Positions 1,190 through 61,451 of a DNA stretch of 64,000 nucleotides are shown here, piece after piece. A program made the position numbers and the translations under genes. How positions within the stretch are numbered: the stretch's first letter is position 1; the number at the start of each line of letters is the position of its first letter. Below the pieces are notes generated by a model. That model searched no databases and was not told the origin of the DNA. It saw nothing but the letters and a program-made list of their open reading frames with translations. The stretch comes from Lachnospiraceae bacterium (GTDB taxonomy: Bacteria > Bacillota > Clostridia > Lachnospirales > Lachnospiraceae): positions 61,196 through 125,195 of the forward strand of contig JAFYYN010000138.1 in the NCBI GenBank assembly GCA_017557525.1, read 5' to 3'.

Positions 1190-2272
1190 TCAAGCATTCT
1201 TTGCTTCGTAGTCTTTTAAGAAATCAACAAGTGCCTGTACACCTTCGATAGGCATTGCGTTGTAGATAGAAGCACGAAGACCGCCAACGCTTCTGTGACC
1301 CTTAAGGTTATCAAAGCCTGCTGCCTTTGTAGCTGCAACAACTGCTGCATCCTTATCTGCATCGCCTGTTACGAAAGGAACGTTCATAAGTGAACGATAC
1401 TTCTTCTCTACAGTACCCTTGAAGAGCTTGCTTGAATCAAGGAAGTCATAAAGGATAGCTGCCTTCTTCTTGTTAATCTCATCCATAGCACTAAGTCCGC
1501 CAAGGCTCTTTAAGTACTTAAATACCTTGCCGCATACATAGATAGCCCAGCAGTTAGGAGTATTGTACATAGAACCGTTCTTAGCGTGTGTGTCAAATCT
1601 GCAGTATGTAGGCACGAAATCAGGAAGGTCCTCACGGATAAGGTCCTCACGAATGATAACGATTGCAAGACCAGCAGGACCTACATTCTTCTGAACACCA
1701 CCGTAGATAAGACCATACTTTGTTACGTCTACGGGTTTACTTAAGAACATTGAAGACTGGTCAGCTACTAAAATCTTACCCTTTGTGTTGGGGAGCTCTG
1801 CATAAGTAGTACCATGGATAGTCTCATTCTCGCAGATATATACATAATCAGCATCATCATCGATAGGAAGATCTGAACAATCAGGAATGTAGCTGTAGTT
1901 CTTGTCTTCACTTGATGCTATTACATTTACCTTACCATACTTCTTAGCCTCAGAAGCAGCCTTCTTTGACCAAGCACCTGTAACAATATAATCAGCTACG
2001 CCGTTCTTCATAAGGTTCATAGGGATCATAGCGAACTCTAATGTTGCACCGCCCTGAACAAAGAGAACCTTGTAGTTATCCGGAATACCCATAAGATCAC
2101 GAAGATCAGCCTCAGCCTCATCTATGATCTGCTGATATACCTTGGAACGATGGGACATTTCCATAACGCTCATACCACAACCACGGTAATCAACTACCTC
2201 TTTTGCGATCTCCTCAAGTACGGGCAGGGGCATCATAGCGGGACCTGCTGAAAAATTGAAAACTCTTGCCAT
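1190..2272 (-). CDS. serC: Phosphoserine aminotransferase
   Basis: PLP-dependent transamination of 3-phosphohydroxypyruvate with glutamate to give O-phosphoserine, step two of serine synthesis. The 360-residue length is normal. It opens with the family signature NFSAGPAMMP, has the VQGGATLEFAMIPMN phosphate-binding region near residue 75, and the PLP lysine context YGGVQKNVGPAG near residue 195. The ATG is preceded by an AAAGGAGGA ribosome site. It is the first gene after the T-box leader and is followed by serA, so the two form a serine-regulated operon. A dispersed palindromic element lies between the leader terminator and this start codon. Confidence 0.95.
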   Translation of the reverse strand: MARVFNFSAGPAMMPLPVLEEIAKEVVDYRGCGMSVMEMSHRSKVYQQIIDEAEADLRDLMGIPDNYKVLFVQGGATLEFAMIPMNLMKNGVADYIVTGAWSKKAASEAKKYGKVNVIASSEDKNYSYIPDCSDLPIDDDADYVYICENETIHGTTYAELPNTKGKILVADQSSMFLSKPVDVTKYGLIYGGVQKNVGPAGLAIVIIREDLIREDLPDFVPTYCRFDTHAKNGSMYNTPNCWAIYVCGKVFKYLKSLGGLSAMDEINKKKAAILYDFLDSSKLFKGTVEKKYRSLMNVPFVTGDADKDAAVVAATKAAGFDNLKGHRSVGGLRASIYNAMPIEGVQALVDFLKDYEAKNA

Positions 2273-2881: not shown

Positions 2882-4008
2882 ATGACAGTCAATCAAACAT
2901 ATGAGGAGACAAGGGATTTAAGGATAACTAAAAGCCATACACAAATTGCAAAAGGACTGGGTATTTTGTTAATGGTGTACCACCATTTATTTGTTATTCC
3001 AGAAAGATTAGGAAATAATTATATCTCATTTATAAATTTTTCTGGGTTAGACTTACAATCTATTGTTGCGAATTTTGCTAAAATATGTGTATGCATTTTT
3101 GTTTTTTGTAGCGGAATAGGGTTATACTATTCCCTCATAGAAATTAAATCATTAAAGGATATGTATAAAAAAGTATTGGTTCACGGATTAAAGTTTCTGA
3201 TGAACTTTTGGATAATCCTTATATTTATTTTTCCAATAGGGTTATATATTCATTATCTTGATTTTAACATACGAACAATTATTCTTCTAATAACAGCATC
3301 ATTCGGTAGTTTTTATGAGTGGTGGTTTGTTCACTTATATCTACTTTTACTTCTTATATCACCTATTATAGTTAGATTGTTTCAAAGCATAGATGTTATA
3401 AAAAAATCATTCCTGTAATAATTCTTTTTTTAATACTTATTTTAGACAAAGTCTTCCTCAATTTGCCTCTTAATGAAAATGGTATATTGATAAAAATAGT
3501 CCGTTTTGTAGACCATCTTAATAACTTTGACTGTGTTATAACTTTTATCGTTGGTATAATGTGCGGTTGTTTTAATATAATCTACTATTACCAAAGAAAT
3601 ATAGGATATAAAAGGTGGCTATTGTGCATAATTTCTATTTTCGTAGCTTATTACACTAGATTGGTATTTTCTAATTCACCTAAGTCTACAAATGTTGATT
3701 TTATTGTAGTTCCGCTACTCATCCTACCTCTTATGACTCTTTTTTATAATACAAAAATAGGAACTGTTTTACAATATTTTGCAAAACACTCAACCAACAT
3801 CTGGCTGACACATACTTTTTGGTGTTATTACTTCGGACAACAAATCGTATTACTTCCGAAATACTCAATTTTAATCTATCTTTGGTTGTTAATACTTTCG
3901 TTATTAAGTTCATATATCATTAACCTCTTGTATATACCTATCAACAATTTATTATTCAACAAATTACATAAGCTTAGTTATAAGGGTTATTTCTATAAAA
4001 ATATATAA
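2882..4008 (+). pseudogene. Acyltransferase-3 family membrane protein split by a frameshift
   Basis: Two consecutive frames (2882-3418 and one reopening after about 3400 and running to 4008) together read as one integral membrane O-acyltransferase of about 375 residues, normal for the acyltransferase-3 family that acetylates surface polysaccharides. The first part has the family opening KGLGILLMVYHHLF near residue 25. The break is at A AAA AAA (3400-3406). Moving to the -1 frame there restores continuous hydrophobic sequence (IIPVIILFLILILDK) with no stop. It could be a pseudogene, a phase-variable tract, or a gene expressed by -1 frameshifting or transcript slippage. The region is clearly richer in A and T than its neighbours, suggesting foreign origin. 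Confidence 0.8.
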
Positions 4009-18327: not shown

Positions 18328-19509
18328 TTATTTGGGTATCCTCACAAATACCCTGAATCCGTTTTCATCTGTAAACGTAGCATTTCCACCAAGTTTCTCA
18401 GCCCTTGTCCTTATATTTTCAAGTCCCATGCCCTCTCCGGATACAGGATCGATCACAGGGACGGTTCTGCGGTTGACCTTTTTATCGTCAATCACAAAAC
18501 CGTCCCCGTGATTGACCGCATAATCATGAACAATTATCTGATACATGGACGGATGCTCGTAAAACCTGATATCAACATTCTCATTTTTGCTGTACTTGAT
18601 GATATTTGAAACCGATTCCTTGACTATATTTATGGTGGCATACTTAATCTCTTTCGAAATCTCTCCCACCTCAGCATCAAATTCAAAAGTCACATTGAAA
18701 TCTGACTTCAAAGGCTCCGCAATCTCCTCCAGAGCAGTTTTTAAGTCAATAGCCTCATCCCTTAAGTCATGTACGCTATTCCTGATATTGTTCATGGCTG
18801 TGTCCAAAGTCTCACGCAGGCTCATTAATTCCTGCTTCATATTCTCATCCTTATTCACAACCATCATGGCCCCGACCTGAAGTATGGAACGACTGAGCAT
18901 ATGACCCACATTATCGTGTATCTCACGGGCAATGCGGTTTCTCTCGGATAGCTGTGCCGCCGAGATACTCTTATCCTGCTCTTCCAAAAGATTCTTATTC
19001 TGCTTGCGCAGGTTCTCCTTATTTATCTCACCCTCGTCCCTGATCTTTCGGTTCTCAACCAGAAGCTTACCCATTTTTTCCGTCCTGTACGCCAGGAATA
19101 CCGCCAATCCTATGACTGCCCCCAGCATTAACCTGGCGCTTAAAACCATTTTCAAAGAAGATATTACAAACCCGGCAGCGAGCATTATTCCGACTATGAT
19201 CTGACGGTCAAGAAAAGCTTCATAGGAAATTACGGGTATAAAAATAATGACTTCCGGGAAAAATACCGAAAGTATCCCAAAAAGATACTCCAGTATCTTA
19301 TCCGCCAGAATACCCTTCTTCTCCACAATACGCAGATAAGACATAAGCGCCGAGATTGTGATCAGTGAAAAAATAACCAAGACCTTCCAGGTATCAGTAT
19401 AAATCCCTATCAAGATAAATATTGACAAAATGATTATAAACAGTTTATCAACAAACTCCTTCAAAATACCACCCGTCCCATAAAAAAATGTGCCAAACCA
19501 TGTTGACAC
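18328..19509 (-). CDS. HisKA_3-type sensor histidine kinase carrying an in-frame palindromic insertion
   Basis: 393 residues from a GTG at 19509; a later start is possible because no good ribosome site is seen. About five hydrophobic segments fill residues 20-140, then a coiled linker. The phospho-acceptor is His198 in ERNRIAREIHDNVGHMLSRS. The ATPase domain shows the N box (KESVSNIIKYS, about 298-307), the G1 region around HDY at 328-330 and G2 GEGMGLENI near 358. Residues 331-354 are encoded by a copy of the dispersed palindromic element, lengthening the ATP lid by about 23 residues. Its partner is the regulator downstream. Whether it is active cannot be judged. Confidence 0.9.
   Translation of the reverse strand: MSTWFGTFFYGTGGILKEFVDKLFIIILSIFILIGIYTDTWKVLVIFSLITISALMSYLRIVEKKGILADKILEYLFGILSVFFPEVIIFIPVISYEAFLDRQIIVGIMLAAGFVISSLKMVLSARLMLGAVIGLAVFLAYRTEKMGKLLVENRKIRDEGEINKENLRKQNKNLLEEQDKSISAAQLSERNRIAREIHDNVGHMLSRSILQVGAMMVVNKDENMKQELMSLRETLDTAMNNIRNSVHDLRDEAIDLKTALEEIAEPLKSDFNVTFEFDAEVGEISKEIKYATINIVKESVSNIIKYSKNENVDIRFYEHPSMYQIIVHDYAVNHGDGFVIDDKKVNRRTVPVIDPVSGEGMGLENIRTRAEKLGGNATFTDENGFRVFVRIPK
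18448..18517. repeat. Dispersed palindromic element, copy 2 (inside kinase gene)
   Basis: Same two-arm structure as the copy at 2346, with a 9-base spacer (about CTTTTTATC). It keeps the reading frame of the histidine kinase open and adds about 23 codons between the G1 and G2 boxes. Confidence 0.92.
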
Positions 19510-25900: not shown

Positions 25901-25923
25901 TTCTTTATTCCTTTTTATTTTTT

Positions 25924-25949
25924 CAATCAGAGGGACGGTTCTGTGATTG
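25924..25949. repeat. Dispersed palindromic element, single unit
   Basis: CAATCAGAGGGACGGTTCTGTGATTG: one unit of the element, with its own CAATCA/TGATTG stem. It lies 14 bases after the stop of the methyltransferase gene and before the MutS2-like gene. Confidence 0.8.
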
Positions 25950-25963
25950 ATTTTTTTATTGTT

Positions 25964-26689
25964 CTATAATCTTCGGATCACCAGTCCTATAAAAGACAGA
26001 TATTTTCCCATCCCCTTGTCAAAGTAACCCTTGTCTTTAATTCCATATTCATGTCCCGACTTAAACCAGTCATCCCATGCCTCATCAAAGCAGTCCAGAT
26101 CAAAATCCATAACGACTTCAAAATCGTCACCTTTTCCTATTAAATTGACCCACCATTCTCTGGTTTGAAACTCATTATAAGCTTCTTTGTCATCTTCAAA
26201 CCATTCCATCATCATCTCGTAATCCTCACCTTTAGGAGCCTCCTTCAATCCGGGAACAGCTATTATCAGAGAACCGCCTTTCTTCAGGTAGGGTAATATC
26301 TTCTCCTGCATATAGCCTTTTTTGTTTGCAAAATAATGATATGCATCAATGCTCACTATGGCATCAAAATACTCTGTCGCATAAGGAAGATCATTTGCAT
26401 CTGCATGAATCGGGATAACACTGTCCGCTATTCCCCATTTTTCAAAAGTCCTTGCGTTCTGGGTAGCAGAAATCCAAAGGTCTGTTGCAAATACATTGAC
26501 CGCTGCTTCTTTTGCCAGAAAAAGGCTTGTAATTCCCGCCCCACATCCAAGATCCATTACGCGGCTGCCTTCCTTTAACGGATATTTAGCAAGCATCTCA
26601 TCTAGAAGCCGCAGACTGTTAGGTCCCATTAAATATTCTTTTGTAAAGTATTCTTTGTAGTTATCAATTCTTCTTATATTTTTATTCAT
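25964..26689 (-). CDS. Class I SAM-dependent methyltransferase
   Basis: 241 residues. Motif I is RVMDLGCGAGITSLFLAKE near residue 42, motif II around VFATDLW, and the post-I acidic and Ser-rich segment ADANDLPYATEYFDAIVSID follows. The long C-terminal part (GKGDDFEVVMDFDLDCFDEA) resembles the small-molecule methyltransferase group rather than rRNA enzymes. Substrate unknown. The start at 26689 follows AGAAAGGTTGG. Upstream lies a terminator-like hairpin that could attenuate it. Confidence 0.85.
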   Translation of the reverse strand: MNKNIRRIDNYKEYFTKEYLMGPNSLRLLDEMLAKYPLKEGSRVMDLGCGAGITSLFLAKEAAVNVFATDLWISATQNARTFEKWGIADSVIPIHADANDLPYATEYFDAIVSIDAYHYFANKKGYMQEKILPYLKKGGSLIIAVPGLKEAPKGEDYEMMMEWFEDDKEAYNEFQTREWWVNLIGKGDDFEVVMDFDLDCFDEAWDDWFKSGHEYGIKDKGYFDKGMGKYLSFIGLVIRRL

Positions 26690-27208: not shown

Positions 27209-27464
27209 TAACATAAGAAAAGCAACGACGGAAAGAGTAATTCATTACGAATCATCCAGAGAGAGCGACATTTTGGTGAAAGCCGTTTATGAGGACGATG
27301 GACGAAAACCATTCCTGAGCTGTAATGCCGAATTAAAGTAAGCGTTACCGTACTCCTGCGTTAAGGGATAGGATTTGTTAGAATCTGAAGTGAAAAGTTA
27401 AGGTGGAACCGTGCTAAATGCACCCTTAAGATTACTATATGGTAATCTTTGGGGTGCTTTTCTT
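27209..27464 (+). ncRNA. T-box riboswitch leader of thrS (threonine specifier ACC)
   Basis: The leader has the AGAGAG stem I motif (27258-27264), a specifier segment GAAAACCATTCCTGAGC in which ACC (27308-27310) is a threonine codon followed by the usual A, and the T-box core AGGTGGAACCGTG (27401-27413), a mild variant of the common TGGTACCGCG form. The attenuator terminator pairs GCACCC with GGGGTGC (27420-27457), with an inner AAGATTAC/GTAATCTT stem, followed by TTTTCTT. Uncharged tRNA-Thr would promote thrS expression. Confidence 0.93.
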
Positions 27465-42914: not shown

Positions 42915-43406
42915 TCAATCCGTAAGGTATGATCTTCTGATACATTTCCACTCTTCGACCAGTCTTTCGGTATTCCATACGGCATTGGCCGGGCTCGTGG
43001 AAGGCAGGCATTTTGCAGGTCTGCCAAGCTTCTTTTCCGTATACTTTTGATAAAACTTAGATGCAGTTTTCCCGTTTACAAATATCTCTTTAATATCCGC
43101 AACATTCAGTATTACATTAAGATCATTTGCTACAACATTTTTTATACTTGAATCCGAAGAGCCTTCAATATCACAGGACCTGATCACATCCCATACTGCT
43201 ACATGATTCTTAAGCAAAAAGGCTTTCTTTTCTTCAATGGTCTGAGGTGTGTTTTCACCAAATACTCCGGCTACAACCTTCCAGAAACGATTCTGCGGAT
43301 GTCCGTAGAAGAAACCTGCCTCTCTGGATTTTACAGAAGGGAAGCTGCCAAGTATCAGTATCTTGGAATTCTCATCATATAGCGGAGCTATCGGATGTAT
43401 TATCAT
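42915..43406 (-). CDS. Uracil-DNA-glycosylase-fold DNA repair protein (deoxyinosine-glycosylase type)
   Basis: 163 residues. The motif LILGSFPSVKSREAGFFYGHPQNRFW near residue 17 and the closing LPSTSPANAVWN are typical of the family annotated as DNA-deoxyinosine glycosylase in the UDG superfamily, which removes hypoxanthine or uracil from DNA. It lacks a cysteine cluster. The ATG at 43406 is chosen over a start eight codons earlier because that would run into the palindromic element. An AAGG site precedes it. Confidence 0.85.
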   Translation of the reverse strand: MIIHPIAPLYDENSKILILGSFPSVKSREAGFFYGHPQNRFWKVVAGVFGENTPQTIEEKKAFLLKNHVAVWDVIRSCDIEGSSDSSIKNVVANDLNVILNVADIKEIFVNGKTASKFYQKYTEKKLGRPAKCLPSTSPANAVWNTERLVEEWKCIRRSYLTD

Positions 43407-43427
43407 AATATTAAACCTTCTTTCTTT

Positions 43428-43482
43428 CAATCAGGGGACGGTTCTGCGGTTGGATTCAATCACAGAACCGTCCCTGTGATTG
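43428..43482. repeat. Dispersed palindromic element, copy 4
   Basis: Two inverted units with almost no spacer, between the stop of the DUF3795-APH gene and the glycosylase gene. It encodes the last nine codons and stop (QSQGRFCD) of the DUF3795-APH protein. Confidence 0.92.
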
Positions 43483-44667
43483 AATTTTATCCCACAATTT
43501 TTCTTTCTGTTCAATACCAAACAATAGAATCTTCCATAGCGAATCAACAGCATAGGGGCCATATGACTGCATATAAGAGATATGCATCTGAATTGCACCG
43601 GCAAATATAAGGTCATACTCTTCTCTTAAAATAGGATCATCACCAAAATACCCTTTAAGGAAGCTCTCCGCCAGATCAAAGCGGTAATCCATCTCATCTG
43701 TAGCATCATCTAAATTCACGAACTGCATTATGAAAGGCCAGCCAAGGTCCAGATACCTGCTACCATACCCCGAATCATCCAGATCAATAAATACTACATC
43801 CCCGTTCTTTTTCATCATCGTATTATGCGGCCCGATATCGGTGTGAACAAAACACTGATCAAGCTTTTCAAAATCAGGGAGAGAATTCAGTATTGCGTCG
43901 AACTCTTTAACAAATTCGAGATTCCTAAACCAAGTATAATAACGCATCTTTGACTGCGTCATAGGGGACTTGATGCTGTAGTCGCTTAGACGGTGAAGCC
44001 TTCTCGTCACTTGGGCTATTCTGTATTCATCTTCGGGAGTTTCTTCCATTTTTCTTCCGTCGATATACTCTATAAGATAAAACCAAAAACTTTCTACCTG
44101 TATATAATAAGTTCCATCCTTGACCGGGTAGATCATAGGAGCCAAACCATGTTCATTCCCCAAGAAAATATGAGCCTGAACATTGCTCTTTATTGTAGAT
44201 TCAGATGTACTGCTTGGCAGACCTTTCAGAATATAATCCCGTTTTTCCGTATGTATCCTAAATATCAGTCTCTCGGAGTCTTCATTATACTGCTCGCAAA
44301 CATCGGGATCATCTATATCCCAGTTTTTAAGGACCAACTTCAGCTTATCTTTATCTATGCTATTATCAGGGTTTTTAAAAGCATTGATCTGAGCATTATA
44401 TATGTCTCTGAGCTCTGAAAGATGATTTACTATATCGGCGTTCCAAGGGATCATCTGCTTTAAGTTTTCGCAAGGGAACTCACTACACAACCCACAGAAC
44501 AAAGCCTCATGTTCTTTGCAACAGGCATATACTCTGCATATCCCCGACTCTGCCCACTCCGGAACCTTTCCTTCAGCTTCTATACATCCCGGACATATCC
44601 CGTCCTTTTTCTTTGTACATCCTACACAGCATTCACCACATGCTGTGATCAAACTAAAATCTGTCAT
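43456..44667 (-). CDS. DUF3795-aminoglycoside phosphotransferase fusion
   Basis: 403 residues. Residues 1-75 are a cysteine-rich DUF3795 module (ACGECCVGCTKKKDGICPGC and CCKEHEALFCGLC), probably zinc-binding. Residues about 110-395 are an APH-fold kinase, with FVHTDIGPHNTMM (Brenner HxDxxxxN motif) near residue 282 and VVFIDLDDSGYG (metal Asp) near 298. The substrate may be an aminoglycoside, choline or another small hydroxyl compound. The C-terminal QSQGRFCD is encoded by a palindromic element, so the native end has been replaced or extended. Confidence 0.88.
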   Translation of the reverse strand: MTDFSLITACGECCVGCTKKKDGICPGCIEAEGKVPEWAESGICRVYACCKEHEALFCGLCSEFPCENLKQMIPWNADIVNHLSELRDIYNAQINAFKNPDNSIDKDKLKLVLKNWDIDDPDVCEQYNEDSERLIFRIHTEKRDYILKGLPSSTSESTIKSNVQAHIFLGNEHGLAPMIYPVKDGTYYIQVESFWFYLIEYIDGRKMEETPEDEYRIAQVTRRLHRLSDYSIKSPMTQSKMRYYTWFRNLEFVKEFDAILNSLPDFEKLDQCFVHTDIGPHNTMMKKNGDVVFIDLDDSGYGSRYLDLGWPFIMQFVNLDDATDEMDYRFDLAESFLKGYFGDDPILREEYDLIFAGAIQMHISYMQSYGPYAVDSLWKILLFGIEQKEKLWDKIQSQGRFCD

Positions 44668-44704
44668 TTATTCCTCACTTCTCAATCTATATATAGAACA
44701 TTCT

Positions 44705-45505
44705 TTATTTTTTCTCTGCCGCCAGTGTTAATATCATATCAGGTAGTATCACATTTCTTCCGTAATCATATTTAGCTTGCTGCTCTTCGGTACGGCCTAC
44801 CAAAGCTACTCCCGAAGCTGAATTATCAGATACCACCAACAAAGCTATACCAGGAAGTTCAAATAAATCAGTCATAAGATAGAACGAACTTGTTTCCATC
44901 TCTATAAGATCAGTATCAAAAGCCCTGATTTCATCCAAATGTGTGTATTCTAGTGCTACCGAAGGAGTACAGAATACACTTGCTTTTTTAATATCATATC
45001 CTTTTTGTTTACCGATATCTACTACCTTGTCAACATACTTCATATCAGGAAATACCTTCTCAAAAAGCATATTGTCTCTAATAGTTTCCTTCATAAGGTA
45101 TGCATCGGCATAACTTCCGGAAATTGAATATGACGGGGTACAAACATCTCCGGGATTAAAACCTTCTTTTAATGCACCTACCGCACCTATAAATATAGCC
45201 CTTTTGAAAGTCAGTTCAGCACATAATGACATATGGTCGATCAGGTTTCCTGCAGATGATCCTATCTTTATCCATGCGATTTTAAGACCATCTTTTTCAA
45301 CCAGATAACCTGCAATATATGCCCCTTCTTTCAATGTAGTAACCTTACAAGTATCCTCCATATGAAGCTTATAAGGAGAAAAACTCGGTGCGATCACAAG
45401 TACGTCATATACAACATCCTCGCTCAAGCCAAATGCCTGTGCCGCCATATGTTCTGAATTATGTTGATGTAATTTCTCAACTATTTTCTTCAATGCTTCC
45501 TTCAT
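44705..45505 (-). CDS. Nucleoside phosphorylase-family protein
   Basis: 266 residues of the PNP/UDP phosphorylase superfamily. Visible elements are DVLVIAPSFSPYKL, the phosphate-binding FIGAVGALKEGFNPGD and the ribose-binding LIEMETSSFYLMTDL (with the EMET-type motif of uridine-phosphorylase-like proteins), then LVVSDNSASG. It probably cleaves a nucleoside with phosphate; which base is unknown. A palindromic element separates it from the nucleotidyltransferase gene upstream. Confidence 0.85.
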   Translation of the reverse strand: MKEALKKIVEKLHQHNSEHMAAQAFGLSEDVVYDVLVIAPSFSPYKLHMEDTCKVTTLKEGAYIAGYLVEKDGLKIAWIKIGSSAGNLIDHMSLCAELTFKRAIFIGAVGALKEGFNPGDVCTPSYSISGSYADAYLMKETIRDNMLFEKVFPDMKYVDKVVDIGKQKGYDIKKASVFCTPSVALEYTHLDEIRAFDTDLIEMETSSFYLMTDLFELPGIALLVVSDNSASGVALVGRTEEQQAKYDYGRNVILPDMILTLAAEKK

Positions 45506-45517
45506 TACACCCTCCTA

Positions 45518-45583
45518 TCAATCACCGGGACGGTTCTGTGGTTGAAATAATATCGTCAGTCAGAGAACCGTCCCTCTGATTGA
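45518..45583. repeat. Dispersed palindromic element, copy 5
   Basis: Two inverted units around an AATAATATCGT spacer, between the nucleotidyltransferase and nucleoside phosphorylase genes. The right unit encodes SIRGTVL and the stop of the nucleotidyltransferase. Confidence 0.92.
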
Positions 45584-46390
45584 TTCATGGTAACTTCTCC
45601 ATATATCAAAAAACACTTCACTTCGACTATTATACTCCGGATAGAAGTTTTTCGCCAACCTGTCATAAGATAAAGCTACGGCATAAAGATAATCCGAAAT
45701 GCGATTAAAAGTCTGATCCTCACACTTAAACGGACTTTGTCCAAGATACTTTACATATTCAAGTTCTTCCGAATATCCATACCTATGGTGATTTGTTCCA
45801 TATTTAATATCTCTTAAGACCATCTGCATTACAAGTGTTTCATTACAGTTCATATTCGCCAGATGACTTCCGATAAGATAATCATTTCGATACAACTTTC
45901 CCAGTGCCTGAACCTGAACAAACCAGAACCTGTTGATGTTTTCCCGGGGCCAGTTTTCATTATTTACTACTTTTTTACCGGCGCTGTTCTTTGCATCCAG
46001 ATTAAGTTCAGCATCTTCAACATATTCAAAATCAAATCCGAAATCATATCTCATACCGTTTTTGAATATTATACGGTACATACGGTTTTCAGGTACGAAA
46101 CAGAAACCAAGTGTGGTATTCTCATCAACAACAAACCTGTCAATCCGTCTCATATACTCTTCGGATGTAACAGTTCCATCCTTCGGAAGACATACCATAA
46201 CCGAAAGATCTATATCACTACAGCAGTCATGGTATCCTGTTTCAAATGCCCGTCCTACAGTATCTTTCTTGTTGTCACGAGTTATGGTGATATCCCGTAC
46301 CTTAGCGCTCATAATTTCCGGGAGCGAAAATATTCTATCTATATACTCTTCAAAATATTTTTCTGTCGCTTCTTTTGATATATCAATCAT
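45560..46390 (-). CDS. Nucleotidyltransferase-fold protein
   Basis: 276 residues. The polymerase-beta-type nucleotidyltransferase motif is in GYHDCCSDIDLSVMV near residue 52 (DxD) with a third acidic residue in RYDFGFDFEYVED near 118. The rest is helical and resembles streptomycin/lincosamide adenylyltransferase-type proteins only in layout. The chain ends in SIRGTVL, encoded by a palindromic element, as does the unrelated kinase at 48832. The gene starts nine bases after the P-loop gene stop. Confidence 0.8.
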   Translation of the reverse strand: MIDISKEATEKYFEEYIDRIFSLPEIMSAKVRDITITRDNKKDTVGRAFETGYHDCCSDIDLSVMVCLPKDGTVTSEEYMRRIDRFVVDENTTLGFCFVPENRMYRIIFKNGMRYDFGFDFEYVEDAELNLDAKNSAGKKVVNNENWPRENINRFWFVQVQALGKLYRNDYLIGSHLANMNCNETLVMQMVLRDIKYGTNHHRYGYSEELEYVKYLGQSPFKCEDQTFNRISDYLYAVALSYDRLAKNFYPEYNSRSEVFFDIWRSYHESIRGTVL

Positions 46391-46399
46391 ATATTATCC

Positions 46400-46987
46400 T
46401 TAAACTAGTCCTCTACTTTGTACCCATGATAGGTAATTATGTTCATCATCTAGTTTGTAATCATATTCTTTTAGTGGATGGAAATTATCAATTACATTAA
46501 TTACCTCATTCAAAACTTCTTCCTTTGTCTTTCCTGCGACATCGATCATTACTTCATTAGGCAACAACGCTCTACCAATAATAACTGAGTTTGCCCTTTC
46601 AACATAGTCAGGAACAAATAATCCGCCTTCGTTCTCATTTCTATGTTCCATCTGACGTTTTATTTGGTCAGGATCACTTGAAACCAGTTTAATTGTAATG
46701 AAATCATAACCTTTAAACTCTATAGGCAGTTCCCGGGTTCTTATATCATCAAAATCTAATGCTACTATATTTTTCAATCCTTTTTCATGGAAAAATCTCA
46801 GCTGTATCAAAACATTTTCCCAGCATAACTGTTCCTCATAAATCCCAATATCCGGCACATCCTCCGGGATAATAAATTCAGGAATCATATTTTGTTCAAT
46901 ATATACCCCATTATAATGTTGATAAAGCCCTTTGGCTAAAGTAGTCTTTCCTACAGCACTGGGACCAATGATAAAAATAAAATCCAT
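46400..46987 (-). CDS. P-loop nucleoside-kinase-like protein
   Basis: 195 residues. Walker A is FIIGPSAVGKTTLAKGLY at the N-terminus; IVALDFDDIRTREL near residue 73 serves as a Walker B-like strand and KRQMEHRNENEGG near 112 may be the lid. The size and plan resemble shikimate/adenylate-kinase-type small-molecule kinases. Substrate unknown. Compositionally richer in A and T than its neighbours. Confidence 0.78.
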   Translation of the reverse strand: MDFIFIIGPSAVGKTTLAKGLYQHYNGVYIEQNMIPEFIIPEDVPDIGIYEEQLCWENVLIQLRFFHEKGLKNIVALDFDDIRTRELPIEFKGYDFITIKLVSSDPDQIKRQMEHRNENEGGLFVPDYVERANSVIIGRALLPNEVMIDVAGKTKEEVLNEVINVIDNFHPLKEYDYKLDDEHNYLSWVQSRGLV

Positions 46988-47077
46988 TTATTCCTTACCT
47001 TTTCTTTTATTCGTCAACCTAAGAGCCATCCCACTGTCATAAATTCCTCCTCGGATTTATTGTCGGGAAACATAATT

Positions 47078-47836
47078 TTAAGACGTTGGAACTGTCTTTC
47101 TGATTGATTCTAACATGTATTCCGCATACTTAACAGAAAGTTCTTTATCGTACTGTGGAACCACACTTGATCCGTACTCCGATAGTGCATTTTCAATCAG
47201 AGAATGATACTCTTCTGGTACATTTTTCAACCCCCACTCTCCGCCTTCTTTCTTGGAAAGTACAAGACCGTCCTTAGCAAACGCCAATACCCTTGCCAGG
47301 TTCAAAGTCAGATACATAGTGTTTTCTGTTATCTCTTCGGGTGCTTCAGCTATATCATTCCATATTGAATCCATATAATCCGCTTTAGGTACTTCAGAAA
47401 ATACATCTTCTATCGAAAGTCCGTAAAGGCACTTCCCTCTTTTCTTGATGATTGTAAAATGAGCCGCAAGATCCTTATCAGTACCGTTCATTTTCCGGAT
47501 ATAGTCCTCGGGATTATCCTTATACCATTTAAGATGCATAGCTGAGAAATGCAATTCAAAAGGTGTAGGGTAAATGAACGGATTACAGACTTCCTTTCGC
47601 ACTATACTCATCTCTATACCTTTAGCCGGAGCATACGAATTTAGGTTAACAACCATTTCCATATATGCCTTCTTGATGGCATCAGACATCTTATCATTAA
47701 CCACAACGATAAGGTCGATATCACTTTTTTCAGGATTAAAACACCCCATAACAGCTGAGCCATGAAGATATATGCCGGCAAGGCTATCTTTTAAAACATC
47801 CTTTGTTTTATTTACAAATTCATTTATCAAGTCCAT
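47078..47836 (-). CDS. AadA-like aminoglycoside nucleotidyltransferase family protein
   Basis: 252 residues, the size and layout of ANT(3'')/ANT(9) adenylyltransferases. The N-terminal nucleotidyltransferase motif is GIYLHGSAVMGCFNPEKSDIDLIVVV near residue 22, with a third acidic residue around KGIEMSIVRKEV. The C-terminal helical domain (TMYLTLNLARVLAFAKDGLV and following) matches the substrate-binding half of the family. Activity on spectinomycin or streptomycin is plausible but must be treated as family-level only. The tail SIRKTVPTS looks like a decayed version of the SIRGTVL tail encoded by the palindromic element. Confidence 0.87.
   Translation of the reverse strand: MDLINEFVNKTKDVLKDSLAGIYLHGSAVMGCFNPEKSDIDLIVVVNDKMSDAIKKAYMEMVVNLNSYAPAKGIEMSIVRKEVCNPFIYPTPFELHFSAMHLKWYKDNPEDYIRKMNGTDKDLAAHFTIIKKRGKCLYGLSIEDVFSEVPKADYMDSIWNDIAEAPEEITENTMYLTLNLARVLAFAKDGLVLSKKEGGEWGLKNVPEEYHSLIENALSEYGSSVVPQYDKELSVKYAEYMLESIRKTVPTS
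47088..47109. repeat. Decayed unit of the palindromic element
   Basis: Reads, on the minus strand, AATCAATCAGAAAGACAGTTCC, differing from the intact AATCAATCAGAGGGACGGTTCT at four positions. Lies at the 3' end of the AadA-like gene. Confidence 0.55.
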
Positions 47837-47850
47837 TTTTATTCCTTTAC

Positions 47851-48783
47851 TCAGATATCTCCCTTTGCAAAAAGATTATCCTTTCCCATACCGCATACAT
47901 ATGGATTGCTGTCATACATATGGGAGAATTCAAGGAAATCTTTCTTCTGTTCGGGATCATTCATAATCTTAACAAGTATTTCATTGGGAATCGTTCTGGC
48001 GTATGCTCCAGGACCGGCCATAGAAATATTCTTTACTCCAAATTTCTTTAGGATTGCTTCTAGTTCCTGCGGCATAAATTGGTATGAAATACTCCAGGGC
48101 GTTTCTCCCCTGTCATATGCCTGTTTTGTTTCCTCCACATCACAGAGAAGCCCTGTTTCATACGCTTTTTTCAGATTGTCCAAATTAAAAGAAAAGTTTT
48201 CTACCATCTGTTCTTTACTATTCAGGCACCACTGCACAAAAGGATCCGGACTGTTTTTGTCCAAAATAAACTGGTTTTTCTGTACCGGATTAGCCAGATA
48301 AGGCAATGCTCCAAGTCTGCTCGAAACACTGATCATAATCTTTTTCTTTGCTATCCTTACAAGTTCACCGATTACCTTTTCCTGGTTCGGATAAGTATAT
48401 GATATCGGCGAATCAAATGACATAACAAGGTCAAATGACCGGTTCGCATATACGGAAAGATCCTCCAGAGCTCCTTTAACAAAGGTAATATTTTCAATCA
48501 CACCTTCTTTTTTCGCTATCTCCTTTGCCTTGTCTATCATCGGCTGGGAAATATCAAAATGCGTAACCTTTACTCCATGCTTTGCAAGTAAAATTGAAAA
48601 CCTGCCGCATCCGGCACCACCGTCAAATGCAGTTTCAATGCCTTCTAAAGACTGCAAAAGTTCGCACTCTATATGTGCTTTCTGCACTATATCATCTATA
48701 AATGTTTTTTCTCTATCCGCCTCAAGCTCTCCCTTATCCGGAAGATTCCACATGCGCTCAGAGATTTTTGTACTATAATCCAT
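47851..48783 (-). CDS. Class I SAM-dependent methyltransferase
   Basis: 310 residues. Motif I is ETAFDGGAGCGRFSILLAKH near residue 55, followed by VTHFDISQPMIDKAK and FVKGALEDLSVYANRSFDLV. The C-terminal 150 residues are helical and variable. Probably a small-molecule methyltransferase. The ATG at 48783 (MDYSTKISERM) follows AAAGGAAAGAAA. Between it and the kinase gene upstream lies a palindromic element. Confidence 0.87.
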   Translation of the reverse strand: MDYSTKISERMWNLPDKGELEADREKTFIDDIVQKAHIECELLQSLEGIETAFDGGAGCGRFSILLAKHGVKVTHFDISQPMIDKAKEIAKKEGVIENITFVKGALEDLSVYANRSFDLVMSFDSPISYTYPNQEKVIGELVRIAKKKIMISVSSRLGALPYLANPVQKNQFILDKNSPDPFVQWCLNSKEQMVENFSFNLDNLKKAYETGLLCDVEETKQAYDRGETPWSISYQFMPQELEAILKKFGVKNISMAGPGAYARTIPNEILVKIMNDPEQKKDFLEFSHMYDSNPYVCGMGKDNLFAKGDI

Positions 48784-48797
48784 TTTCTTTCCTTTCT

Positions 48798-48855
48798 TCA
48801 ATCACTGGGACGGTTCTGCGGTTGAAATCAATCAGAGAACCGTCCCTCTGATTGA
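48798..48855. repeat. Dispersed palindromic element, copy 6
   Basis: Two inverted units with no real spacer. The right unit encodes SIRGTVL and the stop codon of the APH-like kinase at 48832-49842. Confidence 0.92.
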
Positions 48856-49842
48856 TTTCAAATAGTATTTCACTTCATCCTCAACTTCATGTATGTATTT
48901 TATCCGAGCCACAGTGTTATTCACTTCAGATATGCCCATTTGTCGCTCGTTTTCATCCACGCAATTTCCCAGTGCACGGTTAATATTAAATTCCAGCCAT
49001 TCAACCCAGGTATATGCAAGTCCGAAAACTTCTGCATATTTATTAAATCCGTTATCATATGATTCAAGGTATCCTTCAAAGAAAGCCTTCATTTTTTGAA
49101 GATCCAGAGAACAAGTTGTTATACCGGCCCATTGCAAAGAAAGCTGTATCGCACTCGATACCGGATTCCCATAGTCCAGACACTCAAGATCGATCACAAC
49201 AGGCTCATCATTAAGCCACATGACGTTTTTCGGATCCATATCTTCATCAATGATACATTCTATACCGGGCAGATATTTTCTTGCTGAATTCATCTGCTCC
49301 AAAGCATATTCAAGTAGGCTTACATTTTCGTTTAATATCGAAAAAACTTCACTGTTTTGGGCCTTTGCTTTCTCAATCATTTCCCTAAAATCGATGCTTT
49401 CAGTTTCCTGTTCCATGCAACCTATACTATGGGAGTCTATCGCATGTATCCTGCCCTGGATGCTGCCAGCCTTCCTACATTGTTCCAAAGTAATAGCATT
49501 CCAGTCCGTGACAGATCCTTCCTGCCAGTTGAATATATAGAAATACTCTCCGTCAAACTCAAACATTTTTGTATTGTTTATACTGATTGCGGGAACTATC
49601 GGAATCTTATTCTCCTCAAGTATGCTCTCCAATCTCTCTGCTTTTTCGTAGTTTTTCCGTGCCTCGGGGCGTTTCATTATCTCCCGGTTAAGATGTTTTA
49701 CCGCATAGTACTTTCCCTCTGCATAAACCTTATACATTTTATGCATAAAGCCCCCTGAGACAGGAATTATAGGAGGTTCAACCACCCCAAGTCCTTTTGA
49801 TACAAAAAGACGTTTTATTATCTCATCACTATTCTTTTTCAT
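48832..49842 (-). CDS. APH-fold phosphotransferase with altered catalytic loop
   Basis: 336 residues of the aminoglycoside/choline-kinase fold. N-lobe: GGFMHKMYKVYAEGKYYAVKH (nucleotide lysine near 48). The catalytic loop reads CIIDEDMDPKNVMW near residue 200, so the usual His of HxDxxxxN is Asp while the catalytic Asp and Asn remain. The metal Asp is in VVIDLECLDYGNP. CotS/spore-coat-type kinases of similar length exist. The final SIRGTVL comes from a palindromic element. A short 3' fragment of another frame overlaps its start (49829-49920). Confidence 0.83.
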   Translation of the reverse strand: MKKNSDEIIKRLFVSKGLGVVEPPIIPVSGGFMHKMYKVYAEGKYYAVKHLNREIMKRPEARKNYEKAERLESILEENKIPIVPAISINNTKMFEFDGEYFYIFNWQEGSVTDWNAITLEQCRKAGSIQGRIHAIDSHSIGCMEQETESIDFREMIEKAKAQNSEVFSILNENVSLLEYALEQMNSARKYLPGIECIIDEDMDPKNVMWLNDEPVVIDLECLDYGNPVSSAIQLSLQWAGITTCSLDLQKMKAFFEGYLESYDNGFNKYAEVFGLAYTWVEWLEFNINRALGNCVDENERQMGISEVNNTVARIKYIHEVEDEVKYYLKSIRGTVL

Positions 49843-49920
49843 ATAAAACCTTTAAATCCTCAGTAGTTTTCACTTCCATCACGTGAGTATACTTATCCTG
49901 TATCAATGGTTTAAGTTCGG
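49829..49920 (-). pseudogene. 3' stub of an unknown gene
   Basis: In the minus frame ending at TAG 49829 the sequence reads ELKPLIQDKYTHVMEVKTTE and on to a stop that overlaps the start of the APH-like gene by 14 bases, as in a coupled gene pair. Upstream it runs straight into the palindromic element and then a stop. It looks like the C-terminal 30 residues of a lost gene. No family recognised. Confidence 0.4.
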
Positions 49921-49975
49921 CAATCACCGGGACGGTTCTGCGGTTGAAATAATATCGTCAATCAGAGAACCGTCC
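49921..49975. repeat. Dispersed palindromic element, copy 7
   Basis: Two inverted units around an AATAATATCGT spacer, the same spacer as the copy at 45518. It joins the stub of an acyltransferase gene (49971-50010) to the 3' stub of another gene (49829-49920). Confidence 0.92.
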
Positions 49976-50010
49976 ATCCACCTTAGATTATCAATAAAGT
50001 ATTTTCTCAT
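49971..50010 (-). pseudogene. 5' stub of an acyltransferase gene
   Basis: Minus-strand ATG at 50010 begins MRKYFIDNLRWMD and then enters the palindromic element. The same 13 residues, with three silent base changes, start the intact acyltransferase at 41291. It overlaps the end of the HAD gene by 20 bases, so HAD stop and acyltransferase start were once coupled. The rest of the gene is gone. Confidence 0.7.
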
Positions 50011-50656
50011 AAGCATCCATCAAACTTTTTATACTTTCCACTCCATCCGGGACATTCTTTCCGAAACGGTTCAGCCACAACGCTCTTATCCCAACAACTG
50101 AGGCACCTTTAACATCACTGCTGACGGAATCCCCGATATGGATCACTTCATTAGCTTTAAGTCCTGTCCTCTTAAGTGCCAGTTCAAATAATTCCTTCCG
50201 AGGCTTATAACTCTTTGCATCCTCCGAAGTAAAAACCCCGGCAGGTTTTAAGCCATGATAAGCTATTGCCTCAAGGATATCGGAAGTATCTATATTTGAA
50301 ACTACATAAACCGGCAAAGGACTCTTTTCAAAAAATTCTTTGGAGTCCTCAAAAATCGGAGGTTTTACCCAATGAGCAAACATCATTTCACTAAGTTCCT
50401 TTGCATTTGCATTCGAATTAAACCTCTCCAGGGTATGAACCAAAGACTTTTCTTCCAGAGCTCTCTGTGTCTCAAATGTATCTCCGTAAGAGTTCATGAA
50501 CATAGTCTGAAAATCCTTCCACCAGAAAAAATCTATATCTGAATGATTCTCTACCTTTCCGGTCTCACATATGATCTTTGTGATCTTCTTGATCACTTCT
50601 CCGTCCTCGTGTACTATAGTTCCGTAAAAATCCACAAAAAATGCTTTTATGCTCAT
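49991..50656 (-). CDS. HAD-family hydrolase
   Basis: 221 residues. Motif I FFVDFYGTIVHEDG (nucleophile Asp with Tyr where the second Asp is usual), motif II VYVVSNIDTSD near residue 115, the Lys of motif III in DAKSYKPRKELF, and motif IV VIHIGDSVSSDVKGA near 172. A haloacid-dehalogenase-type or phosphatase activity is expected, although the motif I change makes the phosphatase acid/base uncertain. Substrate unknown. It lies between two palindromic elements. Confidence 0.87.
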   Translation of the reverse strand: MSIKAFFVDFYGTIVHEDGEVIKKITKIICETGKVENHSDIDFFWWKDFQTMFMNSYGDTFETQRALEEKSLVHTLERFNSNANAKELSEMMFAHWVKPPIFEDSKEFFEKSPLPVYVVSNIDTSDILEAIAYHGLKPAGVFTSEDAKSYKPRKELFELALKRTGLKANEVIHIGDSVSSDVKGASVVGIRALWLNRFGKNVPDGVESIKSLMDAYEKILY

Positions 50657-50674
50657 AAGTATTCCATCTCCTTT

Positions 50675-50771
50675 TCAATCACCGGGACGGTTCTGCGGTT
50701 GAAATGTCTGGCATCTGCACGTTCCTCGATTAAATGCTTTTTCTCAATCAGAGAACCGTCCCTCTGATTGA
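50675..50771. repeat. Dispersed palindromic element, copy 8 (long spacer)
   Basis: Left unit 50675-50704 and right unit 50743-50771 are intact, but the spacer is about 38 bases of unrelated sequence instead of 0-11. Lies between the HD/beta-lactamase-fold gene and the HAD gene. Confidence 0.88.
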
Positions 50772-52241
50772 TTAAATATAACAGGAATAATCCTCAATCA
50801 GCCACTTCTCCATGCTGTCTTTAAGATCACTCCCGGGATCCTCAATGTTTGAAAGATATGTTACTATTATTCCACTATTCGGCAGAATATAACACTTCTG
50901 TCCTAACTTTCCGTTTATACTGTAGCCGTCACGGTATTTCCATATAAAATAACCATAACCGCCTTCGCGGTTCATCTGCTGTATTGATGTTGCCATCTCC
51001 ACATATTTCTCAGAAACAATACGTTGCCCGTTATAACTCCCCTTATTCATGAGCAGGAGCCCAAATTTACTCAGGTCATGAACCGTAAGTTTCATCCCCG
51101 ATGCCCCGTAAAAATATCCGTCCGGACATCTGGTGTATTCAAACCTCGTTATATCCAGCGGTCTGAGCAGCCTTTCCTCTATAAACTCCCCTAAATCCTT
51201 CCCTAATGCATTCGTGAGCGCTACTCCGACAAGATAAGAGTTTATATTACTGTAATTAAACACCTTCTCTTCGGGATTTTTAATCTCGCAGGCAATTGAA
51301 AAATCCAGCCAGCTTTCCCCTTCGGCTCTAAACGGCAGATCACCTACCGACATAGTAAGAAGCCTGTGAATTGTTATTTTCTCAAATGTCTTTACCTGTT
51401 TTTCGGACATTTTTTTCAGATTCTTTTCAGGCAGATAATCAAGTATGCATTTATTCAGATTAAACAAACCTTCATCATATGCGATACCAACGGCAATCGA
51501 CAAAATTGTTTTGGTCGCTGAATACAGCTCATGAAGATTCTCCGTCGTATCTCCAAAACTATGAAGCAGGACTCCATCTCTATATACTTCGGTTCCGTAT
51601 ACATTCCATTTGTTTTTTATGATATCGTTGACAAATGCGGTAAAGTTCATCGGATCAGGTTTAAAGGTGTCTTTTTCTACAGCTTTATAAAGATCCCTAC
51701 CCATTCTTTTTTCAAAAGATTCCTTTAATGCGATATTTGCGTCCCACTTTTCCTGATCATATGAACCGTATCTTCTCTTTACGTCACTCATGCGGTCAAC
51801 AATGTCCATTACACCATCAGCTCCGGAAATGGCGTCACAGAGCTGTATCAGTCTGTCATAGTCATCAAACTCGACTTTCTTCAAGTTATCAAGTATGAGC
51901 TTTGTTTCTTCTTCGGAAGTATCAATCTTTCCTACATATCCCTTCAGACTGTTTCCGTTTTTAAACGAATGTGTGAGACAGATCCTTGCCGCCTCATCAT
52001 ACCCTAATGACATCATATAAGAATATCCGTCCGATACATGCCCGAGATGCCTTTTTCCGAATTTTCTCCCTATATCATGTAACAGGCCGATTATATATGC
52101 CTTTTCCGGATCAAGTCCAGAATACTGTGCAATTTTTTCCGCACAATGTGCCGCAGTCCTGCTGTGATTTCCCCATGGTCCGGGATTACATTTTTCAGCC
52201 TCTTTAAGTATCTCTTCCGCCTTTTCTCTTGTAGGTAGCAT
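50772..52241 (-). CDS. HD-domain/beta-lactamase-fold fusion protein
   Basis: 489 residues. Residues 1-175 are an HD phosphohydrolase-like domain (WGNHSRTAAHCAEKIAQYSG, IIGLLHDIGRKFGKRH, and a late LIQLCDAISG Asp). Residues about 195-489 are a class C beta-lactamase/penicillin-binding-protein fold: SATKTILS (SxxK, near 245), FNYSNINSYL (YxN, near 330) and a C-terminal NGKLGQKCYILP in the KTG position. No signal peptide is visible, so the serine hydrolase would be cytosolic, pointing to an esterase or amidase rather than cell-wall or beta-lactam action. The stop lies at the edge of a palindromic element. Confidence 0.87.
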   Translation of the reverse strand: MLPTREKAEEILKEAEKCNPGPWGNHSRTAAHCAEKIAQYSGLDPEKAYIIGLLHDIGRKFGKRHLGHVSDGYSYMMSLGYDEAARICLTHSFKNGNSLKGYVGKIDTSEEETKLILDNLKKVEFDDYDRLIQLCDAISGADGVMDIVDRMSDVKRRYGSYDQEKWDANIALKESFEKRMGRDLYKAVEKDTFKPDPMNFTAFVNDIIKNKWNVYGTEVYRDGVLLHSFGDTTENLHELYSATKTILSIAVGIAYDEGLFNLNKCILDYLPEKNLKKMSEKQVKTFEKITIHRLLTMSVGDLPFRAEGESWLDFSIACEIKNPEEKVFNYSNINSYLVGVALTNALGKDLGEFIEERLLRPLDITRFEYTRCPDGYFYGASGMKLTVHDLSKFGLLLMNKGSYNGQRIVSEKYVEMATSIQQMNREGGYGYFIWKYRDGYSINGKLGQKCYILPNSGIIVTYLSNIEDPGSDLKDSMEKWLIEDYSCYI

Positions 52242-59992: not shown

Positions 59993-60123
59993 TTTTATCA
60001 ACCTCTTTTTCTGATTATTCTGATAAACTCCACTTCCGCTCAGCGGAGTTATAGCGTCATGGCTCCGTCACTCATTTTGTGACTAACTACTCATGCCAAA
60101 CACCGGTAAGTTTATGATATTGA

Positions 60124-60152
60124 TTTCAATTAGAGAACTTTTCCTCCAATTG
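60124..60152. repeat. Decayed unit of the palindromic element
   Basis: CAATTAGAGAACTTTTCCTCCAATTG at about 60127-60152 keeps the CAATTAGAG stem and matches the intact unit at about 20 of 26 positions. It encodes the C-terminal QLEEKFSN and stop of the ceramidase-like protein. Confidence 0.45.
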
Positions 60153-61451
60153 AAACGTTACAAACTCTACCACTCTATCCGCTTCTTCTCTATTAAACGG
60201 AAATACTCGTTTAAATGACCTAAAGTATATCAATAATGACCAATATACTTCATATCCTCCGATATCATACTCCTCCTTTGTAGGGAAATATGATAAGATT
60301 CCATTAGTATATCCATTCAGATAAAAGTATTCATTATTTAGTTTCTCAGCTGCCAAAATTGCAAATTCAGTCATTAGTTCATACGCCATACCGCAAAGAC
60401 ACAGCTCACCTATTCTAAAGTACTGAACCTCCGCCTTATCTTCCTGATATGATATGTGATATTCATTTAACCTTCTGACTTCAGAAATCCACGCCGTACC
60501 ATCTATATGGCATTCCCTTTTTGCATCAGCAGCTATATTGTTCGCTTCTTCAATACCAGGTACCCTCGATTTCAAAAGCATTTCGCATGAGTACATTTTG
60601 ATTGACACATCATCTTTTAAAGCTTTAAGCTTTGTGTTATCGGCTTCATCTAAAACCTTAAGCTTTTCAAGGATATTATCTGCCATCAGCTGTAATGCAT
60701 TTTCAGACCTCACATATTGTGGTCCCTGTGCATCAACCGGAGTGTTTTTCGAACAGAAGTACTTAGGTGCAATGTTTCCGGCAGAACCTTGAATAAGCAT
60801 AACATGACATTTATAAAATCTTTGAACCGTCTCACGCACATTACCAAAGTAATCCGGAGATATAAGATAGTTGTCAGCCTTAAGACAGTTACAATGTGCC
60901 GTCAAACGCAAAATAATCAGTTTTCTTTCATCAAATGTGGCTCTTTTACCATTATCATTACAATTCTTATCTTCAAAATTCCTGCGAAGCTCTATAATTC
61001 CTAATCTGTCATCTATGTTATTATTTCCTAATCGTCTGTTGACTCCAATATCGGATTTAGTATTCCCATAACGTATGACCACAGTTTCAATATCCATAAT
61101 AGCCGCATCAACGGCCTTAAGCACCTTTTCACATACAAAATCAAAATACCCTTCCATAGCTTCTGCATCCGGTGCTGCATGGGTATGTGAAAAACAGATC
61201 ATGACCTTTTCACGGGTTATCCCTAAATGCTTACCAATTTTGTCTCTCAGTATGACTGATAATTCAGTGGTAAATCCGATACTATCAATGGTTATCAAAA
61301 CGCACCGTTCCGTTTCTTCCCAAACAGACACTTGTGCCAGTAAAGGTTTCATTACCCCTCTTGAAATATCATCTTCCCTGTAAAACCCAACTAAAGGTGC
61401 CGGTCTGTCCGGAGTTATATCTACCTCTCCGAATCCAACTCTAATACTCAT
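60126..61451 (-). CDS. Neutral/alkaline ceramidase-like hydrolase
   Basis: 441 residues resembling the catalytic N-terminal domain of neutral/non-lysosomal ceramidases. Opening IRVGFGEVDITPDRPAPLVG; zinc-site histidines in MICFSHTHAAPDAEAMEG near residue 90; a second block QGSAGNIAPKYF near 222; and AYELMTEFAILAAEKL. Real ceramidases are about 650-700 residues and secreted; this one has no signal peptide and lacks the C-terminal domain, so a different amide or ester substrate is likely. Such shortened homologues are often annotated simply as alkaline ceramidase-like. Confidence 0.82.
   Translation of the reverse strand: MSIRVGFGEVDITPDRPAPLVGFYREDDISRGVMKPLLAQVSVWEETERCVLITIDSIGFTTELSVILRDKIGKHLGITREKVMICFSHTHAAPDAEAMEGYFDFVCEKVLKAVDAAIMDIETVVIRYGNTKSDIGVNRRLGNNNIDDRLGIIELRRNFEDKNCNDNGKRATFDERKLIILRLTAHCNCLKADNYLISPDYFGNVRETVQRFYKCHVMLIQGSAGNIAPKYFCSKNTPVDAQGPQYVRSENALQLMADNILEKLKVLDEADNTKLKALKDDVSIKMYSCEMLLKSRVPGIEEANNIAADAKRECHIDGTAWISEVRRLNEYHISYQEDKAEVQYFRIGELCLCGMAYELMTEFAILAAEKLNNEYFYLNGYTNGILSYFPTKEEYDIGGYEVYWSLLIYFRSFKRVFPFNREEADRVVEFVTFQLEEKFSN

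Follow-up and report, generated by a model that had tools for sequence, protein, structure and literature searches.

REPINs, the hairpin-forming doublets of repetitive extragenic palindromic (REP) sequences, have been argued to be minimal derivatives of the repeats that flank the genes of REP-associated tyrosine transposases (RAYTs) (Bertels and Rainey 2011, PMC3116915). TnpAREP of E. coli and other bacteria has been described to bind folded single strands, with the GTAG foot playing a role and with loop requirements that differ between groups (PMC8266576). TIRYT genes are accompanied by inverted repeats; GGGGWSAS is common to a part of these repeats, and some of the terminal inverted repeat (TIR) families are dispersed, in dimers or in clusters (Di Nocera 2013, PMC3733652). 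Members of subclass 2.1, which have helix-turn-helix (HTH)-like tails (HTH_23, HTH_28 or DnaA_C), are reported without REP-like sequences beside them in the accessible part of the survey by Quentin 2018 (PMC6006769); RAYT group 1 of Bertels 2017 has been mapped to this subclass (PMC6006769), and TIRYT/TIRtron is probably the same subclass. In this work, we have analysed a stretch of 64,000 nt from a Lachnospiraceae bacterium (contig JAFYYN010000138.1, positions 61,196 to 125,195; the window), in which a two-unit palindrome stands at the 3' end of one gene after another.

The palindromes at gene ends belong to a dispersed repeat family of about a hundred copies. They resemble very small mobile elements of the sort documented chiefly in Proteobacteria, and we consider it likely, from the sequence comparisons presented below, that they are REPIN-like minimal non-autonomous elements which have been spread, at least in the past, via a RAYT-kind Y1/HUH transposase with a putatively HTH-like tail. 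The source genome (G000; 3.93 Mb, 196 contigs, 92.5% complete) holds 113 exact cores and not one copy of the reversed core. The element analysis took in 100 of these 113 cores, the units being chosen by their core, and gave 82 elements: 31 inverted pairs, 50 singlets and 1 direct pair. The inverted pairs are without exception head-to-head (31/31, cores facing each other, plus then minus), with a core-to-core distance of 18–31 nt and once of 57. Each unit is a hairpin with variable arms and a near-constant loop, GGGGACGGTTCT or close to it, and a stem of at least 6 pairs is present in 96/100 units versus a mean of 29 (23–45) with shuffled flanks. The arms are of the TCAATCA type in 60 units, of the TGACA type in 35, of the AGACAG type in 3 and of other types in 2. 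Searching the genome by the arms only, in 539 kb that are mostly DNA fetched around cores, found the core in the loop of 33/33, 25/27 and 3/3 palindromes for the three arm types; in the window, which was not fetched around cores, the same search found it in 5/5 palindromes. The REP-like reading contained in the original prediction is supported by these dispersed head-to-head pairs and by the RAYT described next.

Four Y1 proteins are encoded in the source genome, two of them by short frames (172 and 131 aa), like IS200-type TnpA. On either side of the gene of a longer one stand inverted copies of this core:

L048, 9298-10035, minus strand: gene of a 245-aa Y1/HUH RAYT, with inverted units at 9272 (plus) and 10096 (minus)

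A link between such palindromes and REP-associated Y1 transposases in Firmicutes had originally been suggested, together with a search for a transposase gene flanked by the repeat; this search was positive in the own genome and, as shown below, in relatives of the protein. The RAYT matches Pfam Y1_Tnp with 53 bits, and the NCBIfam model REP_Tyr_transpos, which serves for naming and is no published definition, with E 2.5e-14 and 53 bits, below the cut-off of 80; all 49 RAYT relatives scanned match this model at E 0.001. The HUH motif followed by the class 2 signature Y---NP is found in 91 of 92 RAYTs, our own included, and H60, H62, Y119, N123 and P124 are invariant across 17 alignment rows. 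When a profile of the RAYT alignment was compared with solved structures, the sole match at E 0.01 was TnpAREP 4er8 (E 8.9e-6). The own RAYT has an aligned SIRQIERLTGI tail and no Pfam HTH match, and among 49 relatives HTH_23 was matched in 10 and HTH_28 in 5 at E 0.01. By its signature, its tail and its bracketing, this group of RAYTs appears to resemble subclass 2.1, RAYT group 1 and TIRYT. The second long Y1 protein of the genome (L086:4527-5210) is flanked on both sides by GGGGTCTGACCCC-type repeats, another TIR type. Carriage of the RAYT on phages or plasmids was considered and rejected, as the 50,697 phage records gave 1 match and the 72,556 plasmid records 16, none of them reaching 60% identity.

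The flanks of related proteins were examined in the best 80 of 585 RAYT matches, which come mostly from Firmicutes, with a few labelled Treponema, Prevotella, Coriobacteria and others according to the record titles. Exact copies of GGGACGGTTC within 600 nt are present on both sides of the gene in 38/80 relatives and on at least one side in 44/80, and scrambled and reversed cores in 0/80. In the 38 bracketed loci the nearest units face the gene in 30 (plus upstream, minus downstream), both run along the gene in 5 and both point away from it in 3. Most other relatives have related flanking motifs. With 12 added, a GGGAC-type motif flanks 83 of 92 RAYTs, of the GGGACGGTTC type in 53 (10 of them on one side only) and of a related type in 30, and GGGACAG is found on both sides in 12/92 loci. 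These motif types, which were defined by us, cluster on the protein tree (29 changes vs 37.3 when shuffled, 0/200), with the GGGACGGTTC type over the whole tree. In 39 upstream units the arms hold little sequence information, and their Watson-Crick stem score is 3.82 versus 1.91 with re-dealt right arms (maximum of 500: 2.51); across many genomes the loop recurs, with differing arms that are complementary to each other. These 39 units, like the 100 from the source genome, were chosen by their core, so that the constancy of their core follows from this choice; evidence for the loop that is free of this bias comes from the flanks of loci chosen by their protein and, in part, from the arms-only search. 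No choice was made on the base before the core, and it is G in 35 of the 39 units. At L232:1564-2335 (G034), a truncated RAYT of 130 aa is still bracketed by inverted units.

Copy number was compared with RAYT presence in a family sample of 150 genomes, 12 of which hold at least 10 exact cores: 8 of the 10 genomes with a close RAYT do so versus 4 of the 140 without (Fisher p 4e-9), a close RAYT being defined by E up to 1e-45, a limit that was chosen after the flanks had been seen. All 18 genomes picked from RAYT loci hold copies, 8–203 each, versus 0–5 for the reversed control, with one of them (G187) hardly above its control (9 copies vs 5).

Sister species present the same sites with and without the elements. 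Between iscS and rsmE, three genomes (G000, G163 and G166) carry a RAYT with its two units, and the site is empty in G156, G160, G169 and G153, where 15–38 nt lie between the aligned flanks. G158 carries a scar there, one unit plus about 57 nt that align with the RAYT 3' end; G155 retains one unit, and G151 has 98 nt without a unit. The RsmE tail enters the unit in G000, and the empty allele of G156, by our reading, ends in ...GFIN. Between thiI and iscS, compared in ten species, a TGACA-like unit is found in G000, G156, G163, G166 and G155 and a TCAATCA-type unit in G151, and no unit is found in G153, G158, G160 and G162. From these differences at the two sites, units come or go at gene ends on the scale of species, and copies are patchy among relatives instead of standing at the same place in all of them. 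In G155 a duplicated piece of the iscS 3' end flanks the unit (L179), and the thiI/iscS gap of G160 (L176) holds another repeat family (TGCTACACAATA...) where sister species have a unit. Two paralogous methyltransferase sites of G153 were rejected as an empty/filled pair, since one holds a pair and the other an apparent single-hairpin remnant.

In many cases the arms of the units correspond to those at the local RAYT. Of the 23 units sampled in G045, 15 have the same arms as the RAYT of that genome; G173 has two RAYTs with different arms, and its units agree with one or the other at 4 of the 7 places sampled, next to a third arm type that neither RAYT matches. Arms of the CAATC type bracket RAYTs elsewhere (L275, L307).

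In the window itself, the core GGGACGGTTCT was found at 30 places when as many as 2 mismatches were allowed, versus 8.8 expected, and none of 100 shuffles matched this count. Seven two-unit elements and one single unit are built around cores with at most one mismatch, and one decayed pair is added to them:

2349-2415: two-unit element, 5' of the divergent genes 1190-2272 (minus) and 2882-3418 (plus)
18449-18515: two-unit element, in frame within the histidine kinase gene 18328-19509 (minus), in a length-variable stretch of the ATPase domain
25923-25950, plus strand: single unit, 13 nt beyond the stop of gene 25964-26689 (minus)
43426-43483: two-unit element, head-to-head, overlapping the final 28 nt of gene 43456-44667 (minus)
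45518-45583: two-unit element, overlapping the final 24 nt of gene 45560-46390 (minus), whose protein ends ...ESIRGTVL*
48798-48855: two-unit element, overlapping the final 24 nt of gene 48832-49842 (minus), whose protein ends ...KSIRGTVL*
49920-49985: two-unit element with one outer arm decayed, immediately 3' of gene 49991-50656 (minus)
50675-50771: two-unit element whose cores lie 57 nt apart, the longest spacer, adjoining the stop of gene 50772-52241 (minus)
60096-60153: decayed two-unit element, at the 3' end of gene 60126-61451 (minus)
43456-44667, minus strand: gene with its stop within the element, DUF3795 + phosphotransferase (APH fold) fusion
45560-46390, minus strand: gene with its stop within the element, without a Pfam match
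48832-49842, minus strand: gene with its stop within the element, phosphotransferase (APH fold)

Each of the seven pairs folds as one hairpin in which the two cores pair together (z-scores −3.1 to −10.1). The five full copies from 43 to 51 kb and the single unit had been located correctly by the original prediction, as had their position just after or over minus-strand 3' ends; this rule fails for the two elements that it had overlooked, at 2349-2415 and 18449-18515. As for the two decayed units it had proposed, that near 60124 plausibly belongs to a real element, the pair at 60096-60153, whose units face each other and depart from the unit consensus at 9 and 6 of 28 positions. The one at 47088 is indistinguishable from chance: it is absent from the places with up to 10 mismatches, of which a Markov null itself yields 0–15. 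An Rfam scan of the window gave no match to the repeats at gathering score; the only match, elsewhere in the window, was a T-box leader at 27216-27430.

The region 42915-52241 is a one-strand array of genes for small-molecule enzymes, with homologs in sister species that lie in other orders, with or without repeats. Two of its genes are fusions, 43456-44667 (DUF3795 + APH-fold) and 50772-52241 (HD + beta-lactamase-fold), whose halves match at different loci in G158 and in other sister species.

Placement relative to genes was analysed with gene calls from a home-made hexamer gene finder. The 82 elements comprise 64 between tandem genes, 4 between convergent and 5 between divergent genes, and 9 intragenic. 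Their placement is not random with respect to gene ends: 46 of the 68 elements with a 3' gene neighbour lie at its stop or within 26 nt of it, versus 27.9–29.1 for uniform placement in the same gaps, with 0 of 5000 simulations as high. Overlap with gene 3' ends (14) is not above the 18.3 of a null that allows overlap, and overlap with gene starts is avoided (0 vs 16.4 expected). In 11 cases a gene terminates within an element, with unit-encoded tails such as SIRGTVL or SEGRFSD. No bias was seen for the better-paired arm to lie beside the stop (7 vs 7). Two intragenic cases were inspected. In the histidine kinase gene, the open frame runs through the element; at the same place, an RTVP stretch in the homologs of G153 and G156 resembles a remnant unit, as read by eye and at the protein level only. 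In prmA (L048, unit at 11268), the unit lies within the gene in G000 and the open frame continues; core-like stretches are found at the same place in five sister species.

We propose that the autonomous form would consist of a unit, the RAYT gene and an inverted unit, and the minimal form of a unit, a short spacer and an inverted unit, a single strand of which could fold into one long hairpin. By this anatomy, the pairs may be minimal derivatives of the bracketed RAYT, as has been argued for REPINs, and the single units may be remnants. The hairpin would be recognised by the RAYT through its loop, as suggested by the absence of a foot and by the loop being the part that recurs, and the arms could perhaps serve as a second, lineage-specific address. 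The RAYT would then cut and rejoin single-stranded DNA at the element edges, by which the pair would be copied or moved. Insertions may persist at the least harmful positions, shortly after or over stops and in tolerant stretches of a few proteins; a unit lying over a stop could itself provide the stop codon and a short C-terminal tail. As a tentative extension, which we would sooner doubt than adopt, the hairpin might carry a two-part address, with the near-constant 12-nt loop as the key of the family and the free, self-complementary arms as an exchangeable private key. If this were true, several RAYT/REPIN lineages with one loop could coexist in one genome (compare G173), and the recognition code would be unlike the foot-and-stem code described, in the portions available to us, for REP and IS200/IS605 systems.

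Several observations weigh against spread by such a RAYT. The main one comes from a genus sample of 24 genomes, in which copy number ranges from 0 to 208. Of its 13 repeat-rich genomes, 9 do not have this RAYT, and six of these nine, G154, G155, G160, G161, G169 and G171, have no Y1 protein at E 0.001. One of them, G154, has 208 copies at 99% completeness and no Y1 protein at that threshold; in the family sample, G009 and G039 are likewise repeat-rich without a Y1 match. At least 30 copies are found in 4/4 genus genomes with this RAYT and in 9/20 without it, a difference that is not significant (p 0.098). Conversely, G116 and G066 each encode a close RAYT, flanked by other loops, yet hold 8 and 0 exact cores, respectively, and the loop is not universal around RAYTs, as no flanking motif of the GGGAC type was found at 9 of the 92. 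In the source genome the arms that bracket the RAYT are of the TGACAATG type, and the window units and 60 of the 100 genome units are of the TCAATCA type; given this mismatch, service of the TCAATCA-arm units by the own RAYT appears unsupported. Neither a clean target duplication nor movement was seen in the species comparisons, and the GTAG or GTGG 5' foot was found in only 3 and 4 of 100 own units on the two strands. Loss of the RAYT or broken assemblies may explain the repeat-rich genomes that lack it, and loss is seen in two cases, G158 (the scar) and G034 (the truncated gene).

How else could the elements be explained? They could be 3' end signals that serve the host and are kept by selection, such as terminators, mRNA-stabilising hairpins or translation-damping REPs, instead of mobile DNA. 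The marked preference for the first 26 nt after a stop, the stable hairpins and the 11 genes that terminate within an element all fit this explanation, and E. coli REPs near stop codons have been reported to play roles in ribosome stalling (PMC12306157). However, only 1 of the 5 array elements scored as a terminator (hairpin plus T run), and on the strand opposite to the genes, and plain terminators were rejected as the main explanation. Copies are also intragenic and upstream of divergent genes, and their number varies from 0 to 208 within one genus; terminators would not be expected to share a loop among distant bacteria with differing arms, or to bracket a transposase gene. We therefore regard host-serving signals as an unlikely origin, while 3' end signalling may be a secondary function of the elements.

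It had also been proposed that the repeats form gene-plus-repeat cassettes, recombination sites that would shuffle the single-gene units of the 43-51 kb array in the manner of an integron. The array is denser in elements than uniform scatter predicts, with five in 7.3 kb (P 0.0034, from a uniform simulation with 93 elements that ignores contig breaks), homologs of its genes lie in other orders in sister species, and an element stands at the 5' boundary of the methyltransferase in G000, G158 and G153, with a preceding gene that differs between G000 and G158. Yet the best match in the search for an integron integrase reached 66 of 265 bits, below the cut-off, those of 14 controls also stayed below it, the five array elements show no paired attC boxes (no RYYYAAC and one GTTRRRY), and the homologs are also scattered in G159, which has 0 exact cores, so the cassette idea did not hold up and strikes us as very improbable. 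Just as hard to credit, in our opinion, is movement by another enzyme, for instance a differently flanked Y1 protein or a nuclease that has escaped recognition, with the RAYT as a further user of the hairpin. The repeat-rich genomes without any Y1 match speak for it, as does the lack of a RAYT that matches TCAATCA-type arms in the own genome, but CAATC-type arms do bracket RAYTs in other genomes and dispersed copies follow the local RAYT arms in G045 and G173. An autonomous element for the TCAATCA arms was sought among the fetched G000 loci as inverted pairs 110–2500 nt apart; the only such pair, 804 nt apart (L069), encloses ordinary-looking genes.

Spread of REPIN-like elements by a RAYT, the reading we prefer, would assign a dispersed repeat family to RAYTs that a published survey left without REPs, and would extend REPIN-like populations to Lachnospiraceae and other Firmicutes. 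The combination of a shared loop with differing arms offers a sharp and cheap prediction on how an HUH transposase locates its hairpin, and the filled, empty and scarred sites of sister species provide a natural series for the effects of elements on gene ends, including new C-terminal tails. Literature searches gave, among the matches listed, no title on the core as a bacterial repeat and nothing relevant that pairs RAYT or REP with Firmicutes, Clostridia or Lachnospiraceae. As judged from its sequence, the system would be of the RAYT-repeat kind with a differing strict motif, unpublished as far as these searches go.

Compared with the described systems, in the portions of their papers available to us, the locus shares with TIRYT/TIRtron a RAYT-kind Y1/HUH protein with a putatively HTH-like tail, a GGGG-type motif and a single gene between inverted repeats, an arrangement found in the own genome and in 38/80 relatives. 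It differs in its motif, GGGGWSAS in TIRtrons and the loop GGGGACGGTTCT here, with GGGGWSAS in 2 of 100 own units. From subclass 2.1, for which no REPs are reported there, it differs by up to about 200 palindromic copies per genome, and a rule of shared loop and differing arms is not described in the accessible sections of the TIRYT and subclass 2.1 papers (PMC3733652, PMC6006769). The CGTC REPs (Di Nocera 2013) likewise form head-to-head palindromic dimers near gene ends, and CGTC occurs in the reverse strand of the present loop; in those repeats, however, CGTC is an unpaired foot, the loops are of 4–5 nt and there is no associated transposase (PMC3733652). Membership in the GTAG-type REPs was rejected for lack of the foot. 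With REPINs and bacterial interspersed mosaic elements (BIMEs), served by TnpAREP groups 2 and 3, the family has in common dispersed inverted hairpin pairs, singlets, a neighbouring single RAYT and a mostly intergenic position (PMC3116915). Inverted pairs that fold as one hairpin stand beside singlets here too, 31 and 50 of the 82 elements. In contrast to those systems, the conserved stretch of the present family is the loop rather than the foot, and its RAYT has a putatively HTH-like tail.

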